Shown here in pieces: positions 7,996 through 64,000 of a stretch of 64,000 bases of DNA. Each line of letters starts with the position of its first letter. Position 1 is the stretch's first letter. The stretch is from Hoeflea sp. IMCC20628 (GTDB lineage: Bacteria > Pseudomonadota > Alphaproteobacteria > Rhizobiales > Rhizobiaceae), in NCBI RefSeq assembly GCF_001011155.1, contig NZ_CP011481.1:59421-123420 (forward strand). Direction: 5' to 3'. The notes below the pieces were generated by a model. That model searched no databases, was not told where the DNA came from, and was given only the letters and a program-made list of their open reading frames with translations. The position numbers and the translations under genes are program-made.

Positions 7996-8079
7996 TGTGG
8001 GTCAACCAATGCTAGACCGCGGCGGCCATGGATTTGATCGCCGTCTGGATAAAAGCAGTTCAACCTCGGGCTTCATGAT

Positions 8080-8829
8080 TCACACCAGCCACATCCTGAC
8101 CGGCATCCAAATCCCCATTGCAACCATCATCAGGTTCTCTGTCAGCGAAACAAAGCCAAGCGGAACGCTACTGTCGCCACCGACACAAGCACATTTGAGT
8201 TCCCGTTTGTCGATGTAGACCGCTTTGAACACGGAGACAGCACCAATTCCGCCTATCACCAGTGCGAGCGGGGCTGAAAACCACGTCAGAGCGCCCGCAA
8301 GCATAAGGAGGCCTGCGGTAGCTTCGGCAAAGGGGTAGACGTATCCATATGGAACATAGCGTCTCGCAAGCAGATCGTAGTTCAGAAACATCGTGGAGAA
8401 ACTCTCCACATTCTGCAATTTCTGAACAGCGAGAAGGCACATTGCAATGGCAACAAACCGTTCAACTATGGTGATGGCCGGCACGGGCGTGGGAGAAATC
8501 CAGGTCACTGCCACTGCCAGCAGGAGCGACATCAGGAATATGGCGATGACCGGACGATAGCTGGTTTCACCGTCTTCAGGAACGTGCTGCCCAAAGAAGC
8601 GTCTTACGTCGTCATAGCCACCAATCCGCTTTTGATTGATGAAAGTCTGCGGCGTTGTTTCAACGCCATGTTCTTTCCGGAATGATTCCGTCTCGGCTTG
8701 CGTCTTGAGCCAGTGGTCTTCCACCTCATAGCCCTTTCGTGCCAGCAGCGACTTTGCCTTGAGGCCATAGGGACAGATGTGGTCGGGCATTACCATTCGA
8801 TAGAGTGACGCTTTCGGTAGAACCGCCAT
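8080..8829 (-). CDS. glutaredoxin-MauE/DoxX-like fusion membrane protein
   Basis: 249 aa. The N-terminal glutaredoxin domain has CPYG at residues 19-22 and the cis-Pro motif TPQTF near 59. About four membrane helices follow, resembling MauE/methylamine-utilisation-type redox membrane proteins. A C-terminal pair of cysteines (KCACVGG) follows a membrane helix. The likely role is thiol-disulphide exchange at or across the inner membrane. GGGGAGCG precedes the ATG. It lies 11 bp behind the DUF305 gene and is probably co-transcribed from the CueR-type promoter at 9345-9380. Role in metal resistance is inferred from context. Confidence 0.8.
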   Translation of the reverse strand: MAVLPKASLYRMVMPDHICPYGLKAKSLLARKGYEVEDHWLKTQAETESFRKEHGVETTPQTFINQKRIGGYDDVRRFFGQHVPEDGETSYRPVIAIFLMSLLLAVAVTWISPTPVPAITIVERFVAIAMCLLAVQKLQNVESFSTMFLNYDLLARRYVPYGYVYPFAEATAGLLMLAGALTWFSAPLALVIGGIGAVSVFKAVYIDKRELKCACVGGDSSVPLGFVSLTENLMMVAMGIWMPVRMWLV

Positions 8830-54891: not shown

Positions 54892-55005
54892 AGTAAAAAA
54901 TCCTATTACTGTATTTATACGATAATATCGAATTGCATATTGGTCAATACAAATAATTTGCAATAACAAGAATACTATATACTAGATGCTTAATAAATAT
55001 TGTTG

Positions 55006-55034
55006 TTGACACTACTTAACATAAATTCTATTAT
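55006..55034 (+). promoter_or_regulatory. near-consensus sigma-70 promoter
   Basis: TTGACA (55006-55011), 17-bp spacer, TATTAT (55029-55034), about 30 bases before the GTG at 55065. The whole interval 54892-55064 is very AT-rich, unlike the rest of the window. Confidence 0.75.
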
Positions 55035-55064
55035 GGATATATCAATACACAGGGATATTGAATC

Positions 55065-55892
55065 GTGAAATACTTTATACTAGACTTCAAGGGCGCGCCA
55101 AACGGGTATGTTTCGAATAGCGTAGAAGCCTTGCGGCGGGCGACCAAGGACGAGCCTACCGAAATCATTCAATTCGGACGTGATGACTATCTGGGACATC
55201 CGCAACCAATCCGCTTCTTTGAAGACATCGTCGATCAACTGCGTGATTCCGATATCATCATCGGATTTTCAGCGGACAACCTGCTTACATTTTTGAATAA
55301 TGTCGCCGGTTTCCGCGATGCATTGTTTGAAAAAATCGACAATCGCACACCGTTCTATCTGCAATTCCTGCAGGTGTGGGAAACCGTTAATCCCTTGGGG
55401 AGTGAGCGGTCGCGCTCACCGAATCCTTATGCCGATCTTCTCGATAAGCTTGCAGCCTATCCGACGAGCATCAAGGTTCGTGGACTGGAGTGGTTTGAAG
55501 GATGCTTTACTGAATACATCATGAATTTCGAACCCGCCAAGGTGGATCCCTGCATATCCTCCGTCTTTGAGGACGGAGAAAAGATCTGGATTGACGGCGC
55601 CAATTTGATGACATTCGGCGAGGGCAATAGGGCGTTGCTCAAATCCAGCGCGAGTCATCGTAATGTGAGCACTCTGGGTCCCGATGCCGGACTGATCGAC
55701 TACGAGAAGCACTCTCCCTGCGTCATCCGAAAGACCGATAACCATTTCGGTTATTTGGTGAGTGGGATATTTTTTGCGGTCAATTTTGACAGCGCAACGA
55801 ATCCAAGGTCTGTCGGAGAAGCAAATATGACCGCAATTTCAAAAATTGTGCGGGATCTGCAAACAAATGTGAGAGTCCCCGCTGATGCGTAG
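55065..55892 (+). CDS. hypothetical protein
   Basis: 275 aa from GTG 55065, with AGGGAT eight bases upstream. It begins 'MKYFILDFKGAPNGYVSNSV' and contains acidic and aromatic segments ('LGHPQPIRFFEDIVDQLRDS', 'RGLEWFEGCFTEYIMNFEPA'). I recognise no family. Together with 53621, 54274 and 55979 it forms a small cargo island of unknown function under the AT-rich promoter region. Confidence 0.65.
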   Translation: MKYFILDFKGAPNGYVSNSVEALRRATKDEPTEIIQFGRDDYLGHPQPIRFFEDIVDQLRDSDIIIGFSADNLLTFLNNVAGFRDALFEKIDNRTPFYLQFLQVWETVNPLGSERSRSPNPYADLLDKLAAYPTSIKVRGLEWFEGCFTEYIMNFEPAKVDPCISSVFEDGEKIWIDGANLMTFGEGNRALLKSSASHRNVSTLGPDAGLIDYEKHSPCVIRKTDNHFGYLVSGIFFAVNFDSATNPRSVGEANMTAISKIVRDLQTNVRVPADA

Positions 55893-55978
55893 CCGCGTGG
55901 AGGGATATTGGTCTGAAGAGAAGCTCATCCTGCTGCGCATTGGCCTTGGGCCTGTCGCTGACGCCGGAGGAGATCTTC

Positions 55979-56707
55979 ATGCTTGAGATAATCCCATCTA
56001 TGTCAGACGAAGAAATGGCGACTTCAGCGCCTGTTAAGACGGAGGAGGAAGCGGCGGCGGCGTGCAATACGATGCTCGAGGCTGTCCACCGCATGCCGGG
56101 TTGGACGAGCGAACCGGATCTCGCACGCCAGCTTGGCAATGGGCAACTCGGTCTTTTCGGCCGATTCCTGCTATCGGGTGAGGATGTGTCGCTGGTGATA
56201 TGGGGCACTGGTATCCAATGCTGGATCGATTGTGAGTTGGCGCCAGATGATCACCCGCTTCGCCCCTTTGTCGATCAGCATCGCGAGGTACTCCAGCGTC
56301 TCTATGAATCGCTGGCGACGGACCCAGTCGACACGCTTGTGCTGGTTGGACGTTGGGTCGACTTCTTCGGTGACGCGCCAGGCACTCTCGTCATCTATCT
56401 CCGCCGCATGGTCATCCCGGACTGGGTTGGTACAGCATTGTACACTGGCGAACTGGATGCTTGGGATCCGACTCTAGGCGGACCCGGATATCCTCTGATG
56501 CTCCCCGGTCACGATGTAGAACAGGATAAGGCCACGATATTGCGCGAGACCAGACGACTTGTGCTGGCGGAGAACCGGCGACTGGGCTATGCGGAAGAGC
56601 CGGTGGTGCAAGGCATTCTCTGGTGGTCGAGAGACTTGAGCAGCCAAGATGACTATAGCATCACGATCACCATCCCCGATGAGTGGGTGCTTGCGGAAGT
56701 CACCTGA
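55979..56707 (+). CDS. hypothetical protein
   Basis: 242 aa from ATG 55979 (GGAG eight bases upstream); ATG 55940 is an alternative. Acidic, with many Trp ('GILWWSRDLSSQDDYSITIT'). It shares with the 54274 product a general pattern of a 'GRWhDfFGDaP'-like segment followed by Pro/Trp-rich beta strands, so the two may be distant relatives. No family recognised. It is followed by a clean terminator at 56735. Confidence 0.6.
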   Translation: MLEIIPSMSDEEMATSAPVKTEEEAAAACNTMLEAVHRMPGWTSEPDLARQLGNGQLGLFGRFLLSGEDVSLVIWGTGIQCWIDCELAPDDHPLRPFVDQHREVLQRLYESLATDPVDTLVLVGRWVDFFGDAPGTLVIYLRRMVIPDWVGTALYTGELDAWDPTLGGPGYPLMLPGHDVEQDKATILRETRRLVLAENRRLGYAEEPVVQGILWWSRDLSSQDDYSITITIPDEWVLAEVT

Positions 56708-56734
56708 AGAGTTGCTCTGCTATTCGCTATCATG

Positions 56735-56758
56735 GCCCGCTTCGGCGGGCTTTGTTTT
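56735..56758 (+). terminator. UUCG-loop intrinsic terminator
   Basis: GCCCGC-TTCG-GCGGGC followed by TTTGTTTT, 27 bases after the stop of the 55979 gene. It separates that island from the protease/nuclease module. Confidence 0.85.
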
Positions 56759-56970
56759 GTTCAGATGCTTGATGAGCCCGCGTCGCATGTTAACCACGCC
56801 GGAGCTCTTGTTCCGGAAGTGTTCTTTTGACCTTGCCGGAGACGGAAACCCGGACTATGTCTCCTGTGTCGGCAGAAGTTCAATATCTGCAGTCACTTAA
56901 CGGCCCCCACCGGTGCTACTAACACCAATGGAGGCCTGACCCACAACCTTCTTAGAAAAGGAATAGGGCT

Positions 56971-57129
56971 ATGTTGACCCTTAACGATATCCACCGCTCG
57001 GTGGAAGCACCATCTCCTAGTTTTCCCGTTGAAAATGCCTCAGTGGCTGCGCCGCATTCCCGCCGTGTCGCTACCAGCGACCCGTCCAGGAAATCACGGC
57101 AGATCGGCCTCGTCTCGGCCTTGCGCTGA
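56971..57129 (+). CDS. 52-residue basic peptide leading the protease/nuclease module
   Basis: ATG 56971 follows AAAAGGAATAGGG, a good ribosome site. The product is 52 aa, Ser/Arg-rich and soluble (MLTLNDIHRSVEAPSP...). The HRSVEA segment resembles HRATEA near the start of the 58290 product, hinting at a shared motif. No family recognised. A perfect hairpin (57191) lies between it and the next gene. Confidence 0.45.
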   Translation: MLTLNDIHRSVEAPSPSFPVENASVAAPHSRRVATSDPSRKSRQIGLVSALR

Positions 57130-57190
57130 CTGCGCGACCCGGACGATGGCTCAGGCCAAAGGCAGTCTGACTGACTTTGCTGACCGTTCC

Positions 57191-57213
57191 GACGCGGAAA
57201 TAATTTCCGCGTC
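57191..57213 (+). promoter_or_regulatory. perfect hairpin in the leader of the 57279 gene
   Basis: GACGCGGAAA-TAA-TTTCCGCGTC, a 10-bp stem with a three-base loop and no T tail. It is 65 bases before the start codon and could be an RNA processing or attenuation element, or a protein-binding dyad. Confidence 0.55.
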
Positions 57214-57278
57214 AGCGCATCCGTGCGTCGCCTTTGTGCTGCCCCTCGCATTCTTCAATATTTTTCAGGAGACTTCCC

Positions 57279-58199
57279 ATGACTCTTCCCGCCACACTTG
57301 CTCAGCCCACCTCTTACCAGCACACCACCGACCTCAAGGCGCTCCAGCCGCAGCTTGAGGCCCTGGTCACCGAGATCACGGCCTCCGCCCTTTCCGTCGA
57401 GGCGATGCGGCAGTCTTTCAGCGCAAGTCTGGAAGAGGCCGCGTCGGTGCTTCGGTCGGTGCCTGTGCATGAAGGCCGCCTGCTTGAACGCGGCATTGAT
57501 TTGCTCGCAGCCTGCAATCCGGACCTCGTCGTTCTCACAGAGAATATCCGGCTGCCGCTGACGCCGACGGCGATGCAACTGGTCGAGCACAATGAGGTTC
57601 ATTTATATCGCGGCCTCACCCTTGATGCCGATACCGGCGGACGAAAATCGTACACACCTGACCACTTGATCATCAACCGTCTGACGGGGATCGCGCACAT
57701 GGTCGACGTCAAGCGCAGCCTTACATCCTACGAAGCATCCCGCATTGCCGATCTAAAAAACCGGATGCTGGCGTCGGCCCTCGTCGTGCCCGATCATGTC
57801 TACAAAGGGCATCACCGGCTCCTGGTCAAAGAAGTCCGCGTGGTCATCCTCAACGCTCATGGGGGACGCACTGATATCAAAGGCGGAATCTGGCCGCTGT
57901 CTCACCTGGACCATCTTCTGGAAGTGACCGGCGCCGGCGAAGTTTTGCTGTCACTGCGCAAGCTATTTCGGGAGAGGATCGATGCCAATTGGGTTGCCGC
58001 TCGCAGTCCGATCACTGCATCGGGTATCGATAGCTCAGCTTCCACGACCGCTCTCCAGGACGTTGCCGTCGATGCTGGTGATGAAGATGGCTCGGTAAAA
58101 CGGCTGACCGACGCCGGCGACGAGGACGCAGTCGCTCTTGAAGACCTGCCTCCCGTGATCGTTGGTTTTGCCCAGGTTCCGGCCGCCGGCCCGCATTAG
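57279..58199 (+). CDS. putative PD-(D/E)xK-superfamily nuclease-like protein
   Basis: 306 aa from ATG 57279 (CAGGAG upstream). The N-terminal ~100 residues are helical. Residues 127-145 read PDHLIINRLTGIAHMVDVK: Pro-Asp, a beta-hairpin of 15 residues, then Asp-Val-Lys. That is the textbook PD-(D/E)xK catalytic arrangement (D128, D143, K145). The C-terminal ~60 residues are acidic and low complexity. No recognised family beyond the motif. It is the first large gene of a same-strand set with the AAA+ ATPase and M41 peptidase. Confidence 0.6.
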   Translation: MTLPATLAQPTSYQHTTDLKALQPQLEALVTEITASALSVEAMRQSFSASLEEAASVLRSVPVHEGRLLERGIDLLAACNPDLVVLTENIRLPLTPTAMQLVEHNEVHLYRGLTLDADTGGRKSYTPDHLIINRLTGIAHMVDVKRSLTSYEASRIADLKNRMLASALVVPDHVYKGHHRLLVKEVRVVILNAHGGRTDIKGGIWPLSHLDHLLEVTGAGEVLLSLRKLFRERIDANWVAARSPITASGIDSSASTTALQDVAVDAGDEDGSVKRLTDAGDEDAVALEDLPPVIVGFAQVPAAGPH

Positions 58200-58253
58200 C
58201 GCTCTCGTTCGGCCAACGCGCCAACCCAATTCCATGATTGAAATTTAATTGCG

Positions 58254-58271
58254 CCGAGCCTTAGGGCTCGG
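58254..58271 (+). promoter_or_regulatory. hairpin in the leader of the 58290 gene
   Basis: CCGAGCC-TTAG-GGCTCGG, a 7-bp stem, tetraloop, no T tail. It lies immediately before the ribosome site (ACGGAGACC) of the next gene. It is the second such hairpin in this module. Confidence 0.5.
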
Positions 58272-58289
58272 TCAACGGAGACCCTTGCC

Positions 58290-58727
58290 ATGAAAACCGA
58301 TACCGCCCAGATCACCGCCTTCCCTGACGTCCACCGAGCGACAGAAGCAAAACCACGCCGACGGCAACCTCTCCGTCAACTTGCGGCCCAATCCGAACAG
58401 TTGCCAATGCTCGAGAAGGGAGGTTCCGCGAATGGCCACTCGAAAACCATTGTTGCAAGGCCGGGTCCGCGGCAGCTGAGCGAAGAGGAACATGCCGATC
58501 ACGTTGCCAAGGTGGTGCGCATTGCCATTCGCTCGGCAAAACGCCGCGGCGTCAGGCTTGAAAGCGTTCTTTCCATTCCGCGCAGATGGCTCCTTGATCT
58601 GTGTGACGAAGGCGACCCGACCTGCGTCATCGTGCGAGACTGGCTCCTGGGAAACCGCAAACATTTGCCGAAAGACCTTGAAGGCACGGCCACCGGCTGG
58701 ACAAGCGGCAAATGGGGAGATGCGTGA
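58290..58727 (+). CDS. hypothetical protein coupled to the AAA+ ATPase gene
   Basis: 145 aa. A basic, disordered-looking first half (KPRRRQPLRQLAAQ) precedes a compact helical C-terminal half ('AKVVRIAIRSAKRRGVRLES', 'RRWLLDLCDEGDPTCVIVRD'). The stop overlaps the ATPase start as TGATG, implying stoichiometric co-translation. No family recognised. It may be an adaptor or assembly partner of the ATPase, by position only. Confidence 0.6.
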   Translation: MKTDTAQITAFPDVHRATEAKPRRRQPLRQLAAQSEQLPMLEKGGSANGHSKTIVARPGPRQLSEEEHADHVAKVVRIAIRSAKRRGVRLESVLSIPRRWLLDLCDEGDPTCVIVRDWLLGNRKHLPKDLEGTATGWTSGKWGDA

Positions 58728-60769
58728 TGAACACGATCGCTGACCGTATCTCCCGACATCTTCTCAAGCGCATCCGCAGGCTGGCGGTGCTTGAACTCTA
58801 CCAGCGGGCGTCAGACGTGGGACTGCTCACCATCAATTTTCCCTTCGGTGAGAAGAAGCAGGGCATCGCTTGGCAAGTCTCTGGGTTCGCGGCGTCAGGG
58901 CTTGCCGGCGACACCGATCGTGCCCGCCGCCTCGTTGGTCGGGCGCTCAAACGAGCGCCGACGACACTGCATGATGGTTTCGTTGATCATGACGGCGGCG
59001 AGCCCATTAATCGGATGGCCATTGAGATGTCTGGCAGTGAACCAGTGTACCAGGTCAAACCGAAACACGTCAGCGCTGGCGCGAAGCCGGCACAGCGCAA
59101 GAAAGCGCGATCAGTTGCAATCTATCCGATGCTTTCCAGGCAGCTGAATTCCCCAAGCATGTTTGCGCTGCTGCGGGAATTCCTGCCGCCACCCAATCCA
59201 ATGCAGGTGGCCGTCGCGTTGCTGATCGCCCGTGCGGTGGGCGAGAGCGTCACTGACCTAGATCAGCTTCTCGATGTTCTGATGCGGCGAAACCCAGTGA
59301 TCCTGCTCAAAATCCCGGTCACGGGTTTTGAGAGGCAATTCGGCGCGATGCTGGAAGAAGCTTTGATCGCGCCGTTTTTTGCGGAGCTGACCGACATCCG
59401 GGGCGACCGCCCGCTCTCGGAGCGTTTCAGGGACACAAGGCCAGAGATGCGAAAGCGGAAAATTGTCACCGCCTCGGGCCGCAATGTCTCGGATTTGACG
59501 CGACGAAACCTGACGCGATACCTCAGTACTGCGATCCTTGGCGACGCGGCACCGCTTGTCATCGTCGATGAAACATCAGCTCCTGCCAGGCCCGAAATCA
59601 CCGCTGTCTCCGACATCGTGCTCCAGTGCGCGGGTATCGACCAGGCACTGATCACCGATCTGCTTCATGTGTGTCTTGGTATTCCCGCGAGTGAATCATG
59701 TTCCATCATGGAAACGATGTGCCTCGATCCCAATTGTCTCGGGGTGGATGACCTGGGGCTGGCCGTGCGGCCCGGGCGCACGGCAAAAACTGTGCTCGGC
59801 CTGCTGGCGAGCCTCGCCGAAGCTGCCGGCGCAGATGAAAACGAGGATGATGACAAGAAGGTCCGCAAGGGACGCTCGTCCAATCCCCTGTCTGCGTTTC
59901 GGGACAAGCCCAAGAACACTCCGATCGATATGATCTTGCCCGAGATTGAGCCTTCGACAGATGCTGCTGCCGACAAACCGAATTCCGTGATCTCGGGGAT
60001 GGCAGGTGAAGCTACAACAACCGCATCAGCGCATCATGTGCGTTCCCTGCGCGTCGAACATTTGTCCGGCTACGGCGAAGCACGACCGTGGGCGCTTGAC
60101 CTAAAAGACGACCTTGCGCTTTGGCGCGAAGGGGCCCTCGGCTGGCATGAAATGAGCACAAAGTTGATGCTGTCAGGGCCTCCCGGCACCGGCAAGACCA
60201 CCTTCGCCAGAGCGCTTTGCAACACAATCCAGGTTCCATTGATTGTGACCTCGGTAGCATCGTGGCTGGAACCCGGGTTTCTCGGTGATGTTCTTCAGCA
60301 AATGTCGCAAGTTTTTGAGACCGCGCGCGAACATGCGCCGTGCATCGTCTTCATTGATGAGCTCGATGCGATCGGTAGCCGGGGTGGCGGACGAGGCGGA
60401 GATGACCGTAATGAACACTACTGGACAACTTTGATCACGCGCCTGCTGGAACTGCTGGATGGCGCGCTGAAAACGGAAGGCATCATCGTTTTCGCCGCGA
60501 CAAACTTGCCCGACCGGATTGACCCGGCCCTGCTTCGCTCGGGCAGACTGGAGAAACATGTCATCATCCCACCACCCGATGCCCACGCTCTAGCAGGGAT
60601 TCTCGCCCACCATCTCGGTTCCGATCTCGCCTCGGTTTTGGCGTCTGCCCCTGAGCATGCCGAGCCGGGCCCGGAGAGAAAAGCGACGCACACGCTGTTG
60701 TCCGTGCCCGTTCATTCGAAGTCATCCGAGGCAGATGCTGCCGCCGGGAAAGGATCAGCCCATGTCTAA
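58727..60769 (+). CDS. soluble AAA+ ATPase resembling the FtsH ATPase core
   Basis: 680 aa from ATG 58727 (GGGGAG upstream). Residues 1-~430 have no recognisable domain and no membrane helix. An acidic linker (ADENEDDDKK) precedes the AAA module. Walker A is GPPGTGKT (about 484), Walker B 'CIVFIDELDAIGSRGGG' (about 540), then sensor-1 'IIVFAATNLPDRIDPALLRS' and arginine fingers in RSGR (about 603). The chain ends soon after, with no AAA lid; that helix bundle is at the start of the next protein. It overlaps the peptidase gene by eight bases. Substrate unknown. Confidence 0.85.
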   Translation: MNTIADRISRHLLKRIRRLAVLELYQRASDVGLLTINFPFGEKKQGIAWQVSGFAASGLAGDTDRARRLVGRALKRAPTTLHDGFVDHDGGEPINRMAIEMSGSEPVYQVKPKHVSAGAKPAQRKKARSVAIYPMLSRQLNSPSMFALLREFLPPPNPMQVAVALLIARAVGESVTDLDQLLDVLMRRNPVILLKIPVTGFERQFGAMLEEALIAPFFAELTDIRGDRPLSERFRDTRPEMRKRKIVTASGRNVSDLTRRNLTRYLSTAILGDAAPLVIVDETSAPARPEITAVSDIVLQCAGIDQALITDLLHVCLGIPASESCSIMETMCLDPNCLGVDDLGLAVRPGRTAKTVLGLLASLAEAAGADENEDDDKKVRKGRSSNPLSAFRDKPKNTPIDMILPEIEPSTDAAADKPNSVISGMAGEATTTASAHHVRSLRVEHLSGYGEARPWALDLKDDLALWREGALGWHEMSTKLMLSGPPGTGKTTFARALCNTIQVPLIVTSVASWLEPGFLGDVLQQMSQVFETAREHAPCIVFIDELDAIGSRGGGRGGDDRNEHYWTTLITRLLELLDGALKTEGIIVFAATNLPDRIDPALLRSGRLEKHVIIPPPDAHALAGILAHHLGSDLASVLASAPEHAEPGPERKATHTLLSVPVHSKSSEADAAAGKGSAHV

Positions 60770-61529
60770 CCTCCACTCATCTCTTTCACCCGCAACGGCG
60801 CTGCAATCCCTGGCGTTGCTCGCTATCGGCAGGACCGGTGCCGACATCGAGCGCCTTGTTCGTGAAGTGCGCCAACAGGCCCGCCGGGACAGGCGTGAAT
60901 TGACGTGGTCCGACATCGAACAGGCGCTTGGTGCGCAACGCATGCTGATGTCCGACAATCTCCGCTGGCGGGTCTCGGTCCACGAAACAGGTCATGCGAT
61001 GGCCTGGACGCTCCTCAAGATTGGCGATGTTGAGTCCGTGACTTTGGGCCTCGGTGACGTCGGCCAAGTGACGGTCAATCGATATCGTCACCTTCCCCAG
61101 ACAGAGATTTGGCTGACAAAAACGATGGCAGCAATACTGGCTGGGCGTGTCGCAGAGATGCTGGTGGTCAGCGAGGTGCTTGCGGGGTCAGGCGCTGGTC
61201 CGGACAGTGATCTCGCCAAGGCAACAGGGATCGCACTCGACGCCGAGACTAGTCTTGGTTTTGCCGATCATCAGCCGCTACTGTATCGCGCCAGCGCACG
61301 TGGCTTCGACGTTCTGACACTTGATCGTGAGCTGGCAGATCGGGTCAACGCTCGACTACTTGCGGCGGAAACCATGGCTCGCGGGTTGCTGGAAGTGCAT
61401 AGGGCGAAGCTGATGGCAATCGCCACGCGTCTTAACGAAAGCCAGGTCATGTCAGGGGATGAGGTGCGTCTGCTGATGGGCATTGATGGTGATGAAACAG
61501 GAGATGGAAATGGGGATGCCCGGGTCTGA
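60762..61529 (+). CDS. M41 (FtsH-type) zinc metallopeptidase with an N-terminal AAA lid
   Basis: 255 aa from ATG 60762 (AAAGGA upstream). Residues ~12-65 match an AAA lid ('GRTGADIERLVREVRQQARR', ELTWSDIEQAL). The peptidase domain has the zinc motif HETGH (about 74-78; FtsH has HEAGH), AILAGRVAEMLV, and the third zinc ligand Asp in GPDSDLAKAT (about 150; FtsH NDLEQAT). No ATPase core and no membrane helix. With the 58727 product it would rebuild a soluble FtsH-like protease from two chains. Confidence 0.85.
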   Translation: MSNLHSSLSPATALQSLALLAIGRTGADIERLVREVRQQARRDRRELTWSDIEQALGAQRMLMSDNLRWRVSVHETGHAMAWTLLKIGDVESVTLGLGDVGQVTVNRYRHLPQTEIWLTKTMAAILAGRVAEMLVVSEVLAGSGAGPDSDLAKATGIALDAETSLGFADHQPLLYRASARGFDVLTLDRELADRVNARLLAAETMARGLLEVHRAKLMAIATRLNESQVMSGDEVRLLMGIDGDETGDGNGDARV

Positions 61530-61729
61530 AACGACGATTCTTTTGGGCACCAATCCGATTCCGAGCTCCAAGTTTTCGATTCTGCATTCCGGATATTCGA
61601 GTCAGCATTCCCAAGAACCGATTCAAGGCTTCCTGAAGACGTTTCTGAACACCGAAATTTCGATTCGGGAGTGCCGACCATCGATTCTGAAGGCTCAATT
61701 GCCGATTCCTGTGCAAACGGCGATGATGC
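61515..61729. repeat. 21-bp-periodic array of CGANTC motifs (about nine units)
   Basis: GATTC/GAGTC pentamers start at 61536, 61557, 61578, 61599, 61620, 61662, 61683 and 61704, exactly 21 bp apart; the 61641 unit is degenerate (GTTTC). Half-units GATGC occur in phase at 61515 and 61725. Each is preceded by C, and position 13 of the unit is C in nearly all. The rest of each unit varies. GANTC is the CcrM methylation target of alphaproteobacteria. Read from 61530 in the peptidase frame, the array encodes heptads beginning Asp-Ser, directly after the peptidase TGA. Confidence 0.8.
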
Positions 61730-61951
61730 TTAGTTCCCATGTTATGGGCGCACCAACCCACTGCATCGATCAGGTCAGGGCTGTCGAGGGGACGGGGCGA
61801 AGTGGTTGGGGTAAATGCTCCGTACGCTGCCGCCGATGTCATTTGATTGAAAACGCCATGCCCACAAGGCGATCCGAATTGGCTTGATTGAAATTGCGTC
61901 GGATCAGGTTGCGGGCAAATCGATATGCATTAACTCAATTTACGCTGATGC

Positions 61952-61998
61952 GATTCCGAACTTCCGACATTGGATTCAAGACAATGAAAGCGCGATTC
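61952..61998. repeat. second block of 21-bp-spaced GATTC motifs
   Basis: GATTC at 61952, 61973 and 61994, again 21 bp apart. The block is not in phase with the first block. It lies in the gene-poor stretch 61734-62083 upstream of the 62084 gene. Confidence 0.7.
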
Positions 61999-62083
61999 TC
62001 CTTCATACGTCGTTTGCAGAAACGGGGCGGTCATGGGTGAGGTTGTAGATGGACGGGTGTAAGGCGACGCGTGAGGATGATTG

Positions 62084-62425
62084 ATGGCCAGGATGCCTGC
62101 GACGCAAAGAGCGGCCGAACAGAAGGTGCGCCAGAAGGAACATCGCGACAGGGCTCGGGACAAGCGGCGGCCATCCCGTGATGACATTACGCGTCTGCTG
62201 CTCTGGCAGATGATCACTGGCGTCAGCAAGAACCGTTCCGATCAACGTGAGGTTCTGGATCGGCTGCGCAATGAGCTTGTCGATGGCCTCGAAAAACAAG
62301 GCTTCGATGTCCGCGAGAGCGAGGATGCCTTTGAGGAACTGGTCACCAAATATGTCAAGGGCCCGAAGCCAATTCGTCCCAAGCGACATCTTCAAAAGAA
62401 TGCTGGTGGCTCGGGCGCTGGCTAG
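62084..62425 (+). CDS. small charged hypothetical protein
   Basis: 113 aa from ATG 62084 (GAGGA upstream). Very basic first third (AAEQKVRQKEHRDRARDKRR), then a helical part ('LLLWQMITGVSKNRSDQREV', DGLEKQGFDVRESEDAFEELV) and a basic tail. It is a candidate nucleic-acid binder. No family recognised. It lies downstream of the CGANTC array and may be the last gene of the module. The following 62426-62698 holds no gene. Confidence 0.55.
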   Translation: MARMPATQRAAEQKVRQKEHRDRARDKRRPSRDDITRLLLWQMITGVSKNRSDQREVLDRLRNELVDGLEKQGFDVRESEDAFEELVTKYVKGPKPIRPKRHLQKNAGGSGAG

Positions 62426-62698
62426 GCTGCCCTGCATCTCGTCTGGATGCCTTGAGTGGTCACCCGACTGCATCAGCTTGCTGGGCCTGCCCGCCGCGTT
62501 GGGAAATTGTCGTCCCATCGGCTGTTTTGGTGGCCTCAGGCTTCCTTCTGGCTTCCAGTCAAGAGGCTTATTGCAAACCCCGTACCTGCTCGTTTTTGTA
62601 TTCCCCCCGTTACTTCATTTAACTGAATCGATTTTCGTGAGCTGTGAATCGCAGATCCGCATCGGGCAATTCCATGATGTTTTGGCCTTTCAGAAATC

Positions 62699-63162
62699 GG
62701 CATTGCCAAGTTGTTTGGCTTTGGTCGCGGGTTGGCGAGGCGATCGTTTTTCAAGCTGCCATTTCTGTCGTGTAATCAGCCCACAGGCAGAAGGCATCTG
62801 CTCTTGCGTGGCGATATGAGAGAGCTGAGAGGTTGTACCGGCGGGGACGAAAGATGGTGTTTATCTGATCGTGTGCTGACAGGAAGCGCTGCGCTTGACG
62901 AGGTGATTTGAAACGCCCCATGATCTTCTCTCGCTTCCTCGTCTGACGGTGTGAGTTTTCAATTCTGTTGTTCAGGCCCTTGTGGGCCCGATGATCAGCA
63001 TCTGGCGTTAGGTCTTGTATCGGCTTGATATAGCTGCGCAGCTTGTCCGTCACGACGACACGTGGTTCACCGAATTGCTTGACCAGTCTGGAGAAAAACG
63101 CTTGGCAGCTTTGGTATTGCGGCGAGCTTGAACCAGAATGTCGAGCACGTCACCATCGGCGT
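62699..63162 (-). pseudogene. IS6-family element (copy E), 5'-truncated and frameshifted
   Basis: Begins with the terminal repeat GGCATTGCCAAGTTGTTTG (62699). The minus-strand transposase C-terminal part (DKLRSYIKPIQDLTPDADH, HKGLNNRIENSHRQTRKRE) is nearly identical to copy A at 14.2 kb. A one-base deletion (gagaaaaacgc) shifts the frame near 63095, and the homology ends at about 63162, where an IS5 end begins. Confidence 0.8.
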
Positions 63163-63316
63163 GGCATTGGTGCAGGGATCAAATTTCAACGTTTTGTATC
63201 TATGCGACCGGGATCGAAAATAGCTTGATTGATCCAGCATGCCGCACAAACATAACGCCGCCCACCGCCAACACATCGGTAAGATGAAGTTCAAAGTGAC
63301 GAACTGGGCAGAGTGA
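63163..63316 (+). mobile_element. IS5-family 5' fragment
   Basis: GGCATTGGTGCAGGGATCA at the left matches the end of the IS5 relic at 24843. The transposase start MPHKHNAAHRQHIGKMKFKV follows at 63239 and stops after about 25 codons (NWAE then TGA). Beyond 63316 the homology ends. It truncates the IS6 fragment. Confidence 0.7.
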
Positions 63317-63446
63317 AGTGGTCCTGCATTTTTGGGACAGTTTTGCGGCTCTGCTAAGATGCATCGGGATTGTAATCATGGCCACGTCCTCCCAGACATG
63401 CCGCCATAGATTCAGACTTTTGACGCTCTGGGAATCCTGACGTGAA

Positions 63447-63845
63447 TCAGCCTTCACGCCGCTTGGTATAACCCCCGATCTTGCCCGGCCTGATCGCACT
63501 CGGTGTGTGCATAATACAATGCCGGGCACCATAGGCAGCCGAAACCTGATTATCCGAAACTCGCCGAGCGGTGATCGGCTCAAGAGAAAGGGGCATATCT
63601 ATAGCAATGAGATCGACAGGAGCTCCAGCGATTTTCCCGGCTGCGGCAAGGAGAGCCGCCGCCTCCGCGACCGTGCAGAACGGACGGGAGGTGGAGATCA
63701 GACCCTCCTCGGCGTGGTCCAGAAGGTGACGATAGGACGACCCCGCAAAGATCAGGTGCCAATTGCCTACCGCGAATGAAGCCAACGCGACACCACTTGG
63801 CTGTGTTGCGGTCCAGGCTGCATCATTTCCCAAAATAATTGTCAT
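63447..63845 (-). pseudogene. DUF429 family protein, 3'-truncated
   Basis: 132 codons from ATG 63845, with GGAGGGG upstream. 'GNDAAWTATQPSGVALASF', LIAIDMPLS and 'SAAYGARHCIMHTPSAIRPG' are DUF429 motifs (RNase H-like predicted nuclease). The family is usually about 240-270 aa, so roughly half is missing. The sequence runs into unrelated DNA near the IS5/IS6 debris and stops. It follows the 63862 gene by 16 bp. Confidence 0.65.
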
Positions 63846-63861
63846 TGCCCCTCCCGACGAT

Positions 63862-64000
63862 TCAAACCGCCCGGAAGCGATCGACCGCCGTCAGATGCTT
63901 GACCGGTGGATCGGCATCCCAGCCATAAATCTCTGTCCGCAGGAAATGCAGCTCCTCGTCGAGCTTCTCTTCGGGCAACTCCACCCACCAGGATTTCGGG
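63862..64000 (-). CDS. C-terminal end of an unidentified protein (window edge)
   Basis: Only the last ~45 residues are visible: 'PKSWWVELPEEKLDEELHFL' and 'EIYGWDADPPVKHLTAVDRF' RAV before the TGA at 63862-63864. The start is beyond the window. I recognise no family. It is probably co-transcribed with the truncated DUF429 gene. Confidence 0.55.
   Translation of the reverse strand, partial: PKSWWVELPEEKLDEELHFLRTEIYGWDADPPVKHLTAVDRFRAV

Follow-up and report, generated by a model that had tools for sequence, protein, structure and literature searches.

A conserved Rhizobiaceae cassette with a predicted nuclease, a predicted FtsH-type protease split between two genes and a phased CGATTC array

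Among the described systems that come closest to the locus presented here, Tn7-like transposons carry TnsA and TnsC together with phased end sites, IetAS consists of an AAA ATPase with a subtilisin-type protease, and the CapH/CapP- and ImmR/ImmA-type systems act through the DNA-damage-linked proteolysis of a DNA-binding protein. Here we describe a cassette of Hoeflea sp. IMCC20628, located in the 64,000-nucleotide stretch that was analysed (hereafter the window; NZ_CP011481.1, positions 59,421 to 123,420), on a 123,420-bp plasmid-like contig of a 5.1-Mb genome comprising three contigs. It encodes a small peptide, a predicted PD-(D/E)xK nuclease, a 145-amino-acid (aa) protein, an AAA chain and a chain with an M41 peptidase, followed by an array of CGATTC cores phased at 21 bp and a small gene, here called dn. 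With a probability of about 0.4, we read it as a conserved accessory cassette of the Rhizobiaceae, likely LexA-controlled, in which the nuclease and the two-chain protease would act on protein-bound DNA and dn would act on the array. Our literature search returned no description of the cassette; its enzymes belong to known superfamilies, and no counterpart was found for the split FtsH, the array with dn or the leader RNA.

A predicted FtsH-type protease split between two genes and a predicted nuclease

Judged by motifs and domain order, the AAA and M41 proteins together make up a single FtsH, the break falling between AAA core and lid. GPPGTGKT (residue 484), FIDE (542) and RSGR (604) are found in the AAA chain and HETGH at residue 74 of the M41 chain, and the GPDSD region is present as well, confirming the AAA+ core and the FtsH-type zinc peptidase named in a first-pass annotation of the window. 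Positions 198-345 of the FtsH model align to the AAA chain and 351-597 to the following chain, so that model alignment and domain matches both identify the pair as two pieces of one protease. The lid and M41 domains lie together on the second chain, in the order AAA core, lid, M41 as in FtsH, with a lid match below the Pfam cut-off (22.5 vs 27.2). ATP-driven zinc proteolysis is predicted from these motifs. By hydropathy, neither chain has the N-terminal membrane helices of FtsH; the peak 19-residue values are 1.40 for the AAA chain and 1.63 for the M41 chain, the latter borderline and within the peptidase domain, and the ATPase may well be soluble, as had been proposed. The two open reading frames (ORFs) are separate in the window and at the other loci having both genes, with fused exceptions at L028, L029, L130 and L103-L105. 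A cut between core and lid suggests an AAA+ subunit assembled from two genes and raises the question of how such a ring forms. In Bosea (L104; NZ_CP042333.1, 7687-18079), a single-chain AAA-M41 relative lies near a metallophosphoesterase, a DUF6634 protein and a TnsA-TnsB-TnsC-TniQ set. Relatives in Methylorubrum and Antarctobacter have a 3'-5' exonuclease or a GIY-YIG nuclease nearby.

The protein encoded from 57279 is predicted to have the PD-(D/E)xK core fold and its catalytic residue set, as PD-(D/E)xK enzymes were the top fold matches to the modelled structure and E70, D128, D143 and K145 are invariant in an alignment of 40 relatives. The literal motif seen in the first-pass annotation is present, with the spacing PD-x14-D-x-K (P127, D128, D143, K145) rather than x15. 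No Pfam match was obtained at E-values up to 1, and the fold searches cannot exclude homology with TnsA; the fold-match rows held no TnsA, no DDE enzymes and no defence nucleases beyond HamA, Can2 and McrBC, which is no evidence of their absence. The position of this nuclease beside an unfoldase-protease suggests that it acts on protein-bound DNA.

A phased CGATTC array upstream of dn

The repeats that had been noticed 3' of the M41 gene are present, and what had been termed a repeat array is a strict 21-bp phased CGATTC array. In this genome it is restricted to the cassette copies, where it lies upstream of dn on the strand of dn. Three phased cores (at most 3 mismatches) were matched 11 times in the window against 0.18 expected, a number reached by 0 of 100 shuffles, and throughout the genome all 19 three-core matches (at most 2 mismatches) fall at the three cassette copies, with 0 matches to a reversed control. 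The bases between cores carry little information in 131 array units, which were selected by core (at most 1 mismatch) and spacing, making the core profile partly a product of construction. When orthologous arrays are aligned over contiguous registers, differences are seen at 6 of 384 core positions and 181 of 960 spacer positions; two of the loci used here and in the dn counts below, L021 and L107, come from the same species. The two-turn phasing suggests a protein repeatedly binding one face of the helix.

Because the array and dn travel together, the dn protein is the first candidate for the array binder. Among loci with the module, dn is near in 32 of 36, and phased cores lie within 900 bp upstream on the same strand for 31 of 35 dn matches, of which two at L097 overlap, compared with 161 of 3600 random stretches drawn from the array-holding loci themselves; the arrangement also holds where dn is reversed relative to the operon (L029, L138, L141 and L143). 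Across 199 sampled genomes of the family, the nuclease-like gene was found in 33, dn in 38 and the exact three-core pattern in 19 (51 matches, against 3 matches in one genome for a control pattern). Nuclease and dn share 30 genomes (30 of the 41 having either), 3 having the nuclease only, 8 dn only and 158 neither. The pattern shares 16 genomes with dn (3 pattern only, 22 dn only) and 14 with the nuclease (5 pattern only, 19 nuclease only). In addition, dn lies within 15 kb of 35 of 47 nuclease genes and within 1 kb of 22 of 33 array places, always on the strand of the array; these places are the 51 pattern matches with overlaps merged by hand, two in G038 being kept apart. In our reading, the dn protein likely binds the array as the cassette's control or self-recognition site. 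Bare six-base cores in a 21-bp array tied to one small gene represent an unusual cis element.

Other reasons for the array were considered. Methylation at GANTC (CcrM) was suspected at first, because every CGATTC holds GATTC, and was rejected because a T at position 3, found in 11% of the 131 block-1 units, destroys GANTC; the word is also directional. Methylation may still modulate binding at the array. Coding heptads were dismissed on the L025 array, which, read by eye, has stops in its frames, and a memory like that of clustered regularly interspaced short palindromic repeats on the spacers, which are about 81% identical between orthologues (181/960 mismatches).

On two plasmids, L096 (LR723679.1, 11853-33008) and L097 (LR723676.1, 16803-24158), a second array-dn unit is separated from M41 by further genes, at a distance of about 21 and 7 kb, respectively, and thus an operon other than this one can also precede such a unit. 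The two plasmids have in common five genes close to dn that lack a Pfam match. One genome, G078, has five dn matches (one with a stop), no nuclease match and no three-core pattern.

Promoter, leader RNA, extent and spread

A conserved stretch of about 260 bp leads up to and into the small ORF. A GTTC-N7-GTTC box, which is the alphaproteobacterial LexA motif according to excerpts of PMC3323433, lies 87-91 bp ahead of the RNA element in 24 of 30 leaders, compared with 113 of 15000 random stretches, and the genome's own lexA has the same motif upstream. DNA damage is thus likely to turn the cassette on through LexA. No promoter of the strict E. coli type was detected when this region was scanned. 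TTAACCA is present in 18 of 19 loci of a position-based alignment, the 19th (L028) being cut short there; a count of 29 of 30 is biased, because 25 leaders were chosen by a pattern that itself begins with TTAACCA. In excerpts of PMC6180460 and PMC11527210, TTAACCAT is described as a variant of the CtrA site, and the window reads TTAACCAC at its CtrA-type site.

The predicted hairpins of the leader covary across 30 loci. In this 120-nucleotide element the outer stem does not vary, compensatory changes (GGTG/CACC, GATG/CATC, GACG/CGTC) are seen in an inner stem, and a further stem, CCTT/AAGG, would mask the ribosome site of the small ORF. Pair changes on both sides were counted in 15 cells, where shuffles gave 3.8 and none of 500 reached that number; the signal is lost when the partners are slid. 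Of five measures, one, further pair types (5 against 5.5 in shuffles), does not favour the structure. The set held 31 rows, two of them partial opposite-strand matches, and left out a hairpin inside the small ORF that is common in leaders and out of register between loci. The leader model gave 30 full-length matches in 42 sources, 24 of the matches being the model's own sequences. No Rfam match to the leader reached the gathering score, with 3 sub-threshold matches in 55000-64000. A sub-threshold glutamine-II riboswitch match (27 bits, cut-off 33) lies on the minus strand at 58224-58280, between the nuclease and 145-aa genes.

An ORF list check recovered all five tightly packed, same-strand ORFs of the first-pass annotation, together with the TGATG junction (58725-58729) and the 8-base overlap (60762-60769). 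The limits then drawn, 56971-61529, were too narrow: the unit runs from the conserved promoter and leader, starting near 56790 upstream of the small peptide ORF, to block 3 (Table 1), which adds the phased array, dn and the terminal block past 61529. The leader, the LexA-type box, dn and the 21-bp phasing of the cores upstream of it had gone unnoticed in that annotation. The terminator placed ahead of the module is retained as a terminator-like hairpin at 56734-56751, in a hairpin scan whose total was 7 against 6.5 in shuffles.

Table 1. Features of the cassette (window positions)
Feature	Position	Strand	Remarks
Conserved promoter region	56790..56861	+	Leader alignments
TTAACCA, CtrA-type half site	56790-56796	+	
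GTTC-N7-GTTC, LexA-type box	56810-56824	+	
TTGCCG-N17-TATGTC, promoter-like pair	56833-56861	+	
Structured leader RNA element (model R1), predicted	56899..57018	+	Overlaps small ORF start
Small ORF, 52 aa	56971..57129	+	Start conserved among leaders
Predicted PD-(D/E)xK nuclease, 306 aa	57279..58199	+	E70, D128, D143, K145
145-aa protein	58290..58727	+	Conserved, placed between nuclease and AAA genes
AAA chain, 680 aa	58727..60769	+	Likely degenerate AAA-like domain, then active-looking AAA core (480-630)
Lid-M41 chain, 255 aa	60762..61529	+	AAA lid and M41 zinc peptidase (HETGH)
Array block 1	61535..61708	+	Nine 21-bp register positions: seven exact CGATTC, one CGAGTC, one CGTTTC
Array block 2	61951..61998	+	CGATTC, GGATTC, CGATTC at 21-bp steps (two exact)
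Gene dn, 114-aa basic protein	62081..62425	+	
Block 3	62600..62651	-	ATTCCCCCCGTTAC, then two inverted cores (GAATCG) 21 bp apart; right edge of conserved unit

The neighbourhood is conserved in many genomes, the order nuclease, 145-aa protein, AAA, M41 recurring across Rhizobiaceae, a family of soil and marine bacteria (checked in 22 loci found through M41, plasmid records and family genomes). The closest M41 relatives among named records are from Hoeflea, and the cassette is absent from both same-genus genomes searched. The window's genome holds three each of M41 genes, leaders, array loci and dn genes. One set lies on this contig and the other two are chromosomal, on the 4.8-Mb contig, for which reason the earlier term plasmid-borne is unsupported; the window's copy is the one that looks whole. 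Pairwise comparison covered the loci whose edge could be recognised (21 of 24 at the left end, 15 of 24 at the right end). In many of these pairs, homology breaks off close to TTAACCA at the left and no more than about 60 bp from TTCCCC at the right, and the unit thus behaves as a cassette. Some pairs share neighbours past the right edge, and L011 and L014 are collinear through both edges. A phage origin was rejected, as none of the module proteins was found in the 47 stretches of a viral-contig pattern scan and phage matches were to generic AAA or jumbo-phage FtsH.

Partial second M41 genes with their own array blocks, probably decayed second copies, lie downstream of the first module at L010 (11908-13620) and L013 (11787-13520), and the L018 copy looks broken because its M41 gene is in two ORFs (8001-8728) and no dn was found. 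Among neighbouring genes, members of a family of 205-255-aa proteins that has no Pfam match are encoded repeatedly to the left or right of the module (window 55940-56704; L011 10228-10842; L016 6482-7114), and 13 of 24 loci have a DUF3102-like protein of about 365 aa adjoining it upstream (such as L011 2144-3247 and L017 3005-4093).

Possible functions and relation to known systems

In the reading that we tentatively favour, DNA damage, caused for instance by invading DNA or stalled forks, would remove LexA and the leader would tune translation. The AAA and lid-M41 chains would form a single ring, stripping proteins from DNA and degrading them, the nuclease would cut the DNA so cleared, and dn, arranged along one helix face by the two-turn period, would keep the cassette quiet or mark its own DNA. 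Several observations weigh against this reading. The LexA box is missing from 6 of 30 leaders; both dn and the nuclease are missing within 15 kb of 6 of 33 array places, of which three (G008 and two of G031) look like chance or coding repeats; 22 genomes have dn without the strict three-core pattern and 8 have it without the nuclease; and some operons, such as those at L009 and L018, have no dn nearby. In addition, of the two other copies in the same genome, L006 has its AAA ORF in two pieces, with a dn that reads through a TGA in one alignment and not in another, and L007 carries about 1.5 kb extra, likely an insertion sequence, between leader and nuclease. A stronger form of the reading, in which an SOS-triggered nuclease is gated by the two-gene FtsH ring and the dn-array nucleoprotein marks own DNA, appears quite improbable; if true, the use of a phased coat of protein instead of methylation to mark self would introduce a new principle, accompanied by a new leader RNA.

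It is conceivable, if unlikely, that the unit is a mobile element with SOS-triggered excision or copying. Blocks 1-3 would then be its ends or its sites of recombination; dn would cover them, the protease would remove dn and the nuclease would make the cut. The fixed edges at which homology ends in many pairs, the several copies per genome, the inversion of block 3 relative to blocks 1 and 2, the LexA box and the genes between M41 and dn on two plasmids are all consistent with such an element. However, the window's unit contains no transposase or integrase gene, its arrays lie on the right side only, neither an empty site nor a target duplication has been demonstrated, and neighbours are shared beyond some right edges. 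We give similarly low odds to a system of defence against phages or plasmids, with the array serving only as the operator of dn. A nuclease plus an AAA protease, the patchy spread and neighbours that include type I methyltransferase-like (5/101) and HipA (3/101) proteins would fit, but known defence models match only the generic AAA domain, the neighbour counts, taken from 101 of 205 neighbour ORFs, have no baseline frequency, and it would be unusual for an operator to consist of as many as 13 phased cores.

Least probable in our view is a machine of the SOS regulon for DNA repair or the clearing of stalled replication, which the LexA-type box and the unfoldase-protease adjoining a nuclease would suit; the nuclease gene is found in just 33 of 199 family genomes, however, and the cassette is multi-copy with some copies broken. 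The LexA-type box, the patchy multi-copy spread and the decaying copies are better explained by an accessory conflict or mobile cassette than by housekeeping repair. The module proposed in the first-pass annotation is supported by the conserved neighbourhood, the predicted PD-(D/E)xK fold, the pairing of AAA+ and M41 in one protease and the patchy accessory spread (33/199), while a role in defence, toxin control or plasmid stability is inferred. Of the outcomes named beforehand as speaking against the module, two were checked, a neighbourhood not conserved elsewhere and a structure prediction lacking the fold, and neither was obtained. If it is a conflict system, it would add a nuclease-plus-FtsH type on Rhizobiaceae plasmids and chromosomes, and the LexA-type box and leader RNA offer a ready switch for testing defence, mobilisation or DNA maintenance.

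Compared with FtsH itself, the cassette has the AAA core, lid and M41 domain in the same order, with HExxH and the third-ligand region, and differs in its two polypeptides cut between core and lid, its lack of a strong membrane helix and an extra N-terminal part of 440 residues. The predicted nuclease resembles PD-(D/E)xK nucleases, such as restriction enzymes, R2 endonuclease and bunyaviral endonucleases, in modelled core fold and catalytic residues, but matches no sequence family and is partnered by a protease machine. A PD-(D/E)xK nuclease, an AAA+ protein and sites about two helical turns apart are shared with Tn7-like transposons, whereas the cassette has no DDE transposase in the unit (none of the window proteins tested gave a match), an AAA+ protein that is FtsH-type with a protease, and one-sided arrays. 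IetAS likewise pairs an AAA ATPase with a protease, and the likeness to CapH/CapP and ImmR/ImmA would lie in a DNA-damage-linked, protease-gated design. In contrast to these three, however, the cassette has a split AAA, a nuclease, a phased array and an M41 protease (that of IetAS is subtilisin-type), and homology is confined to the AAA domain, the only part matched by IetA models (1.4e-20).

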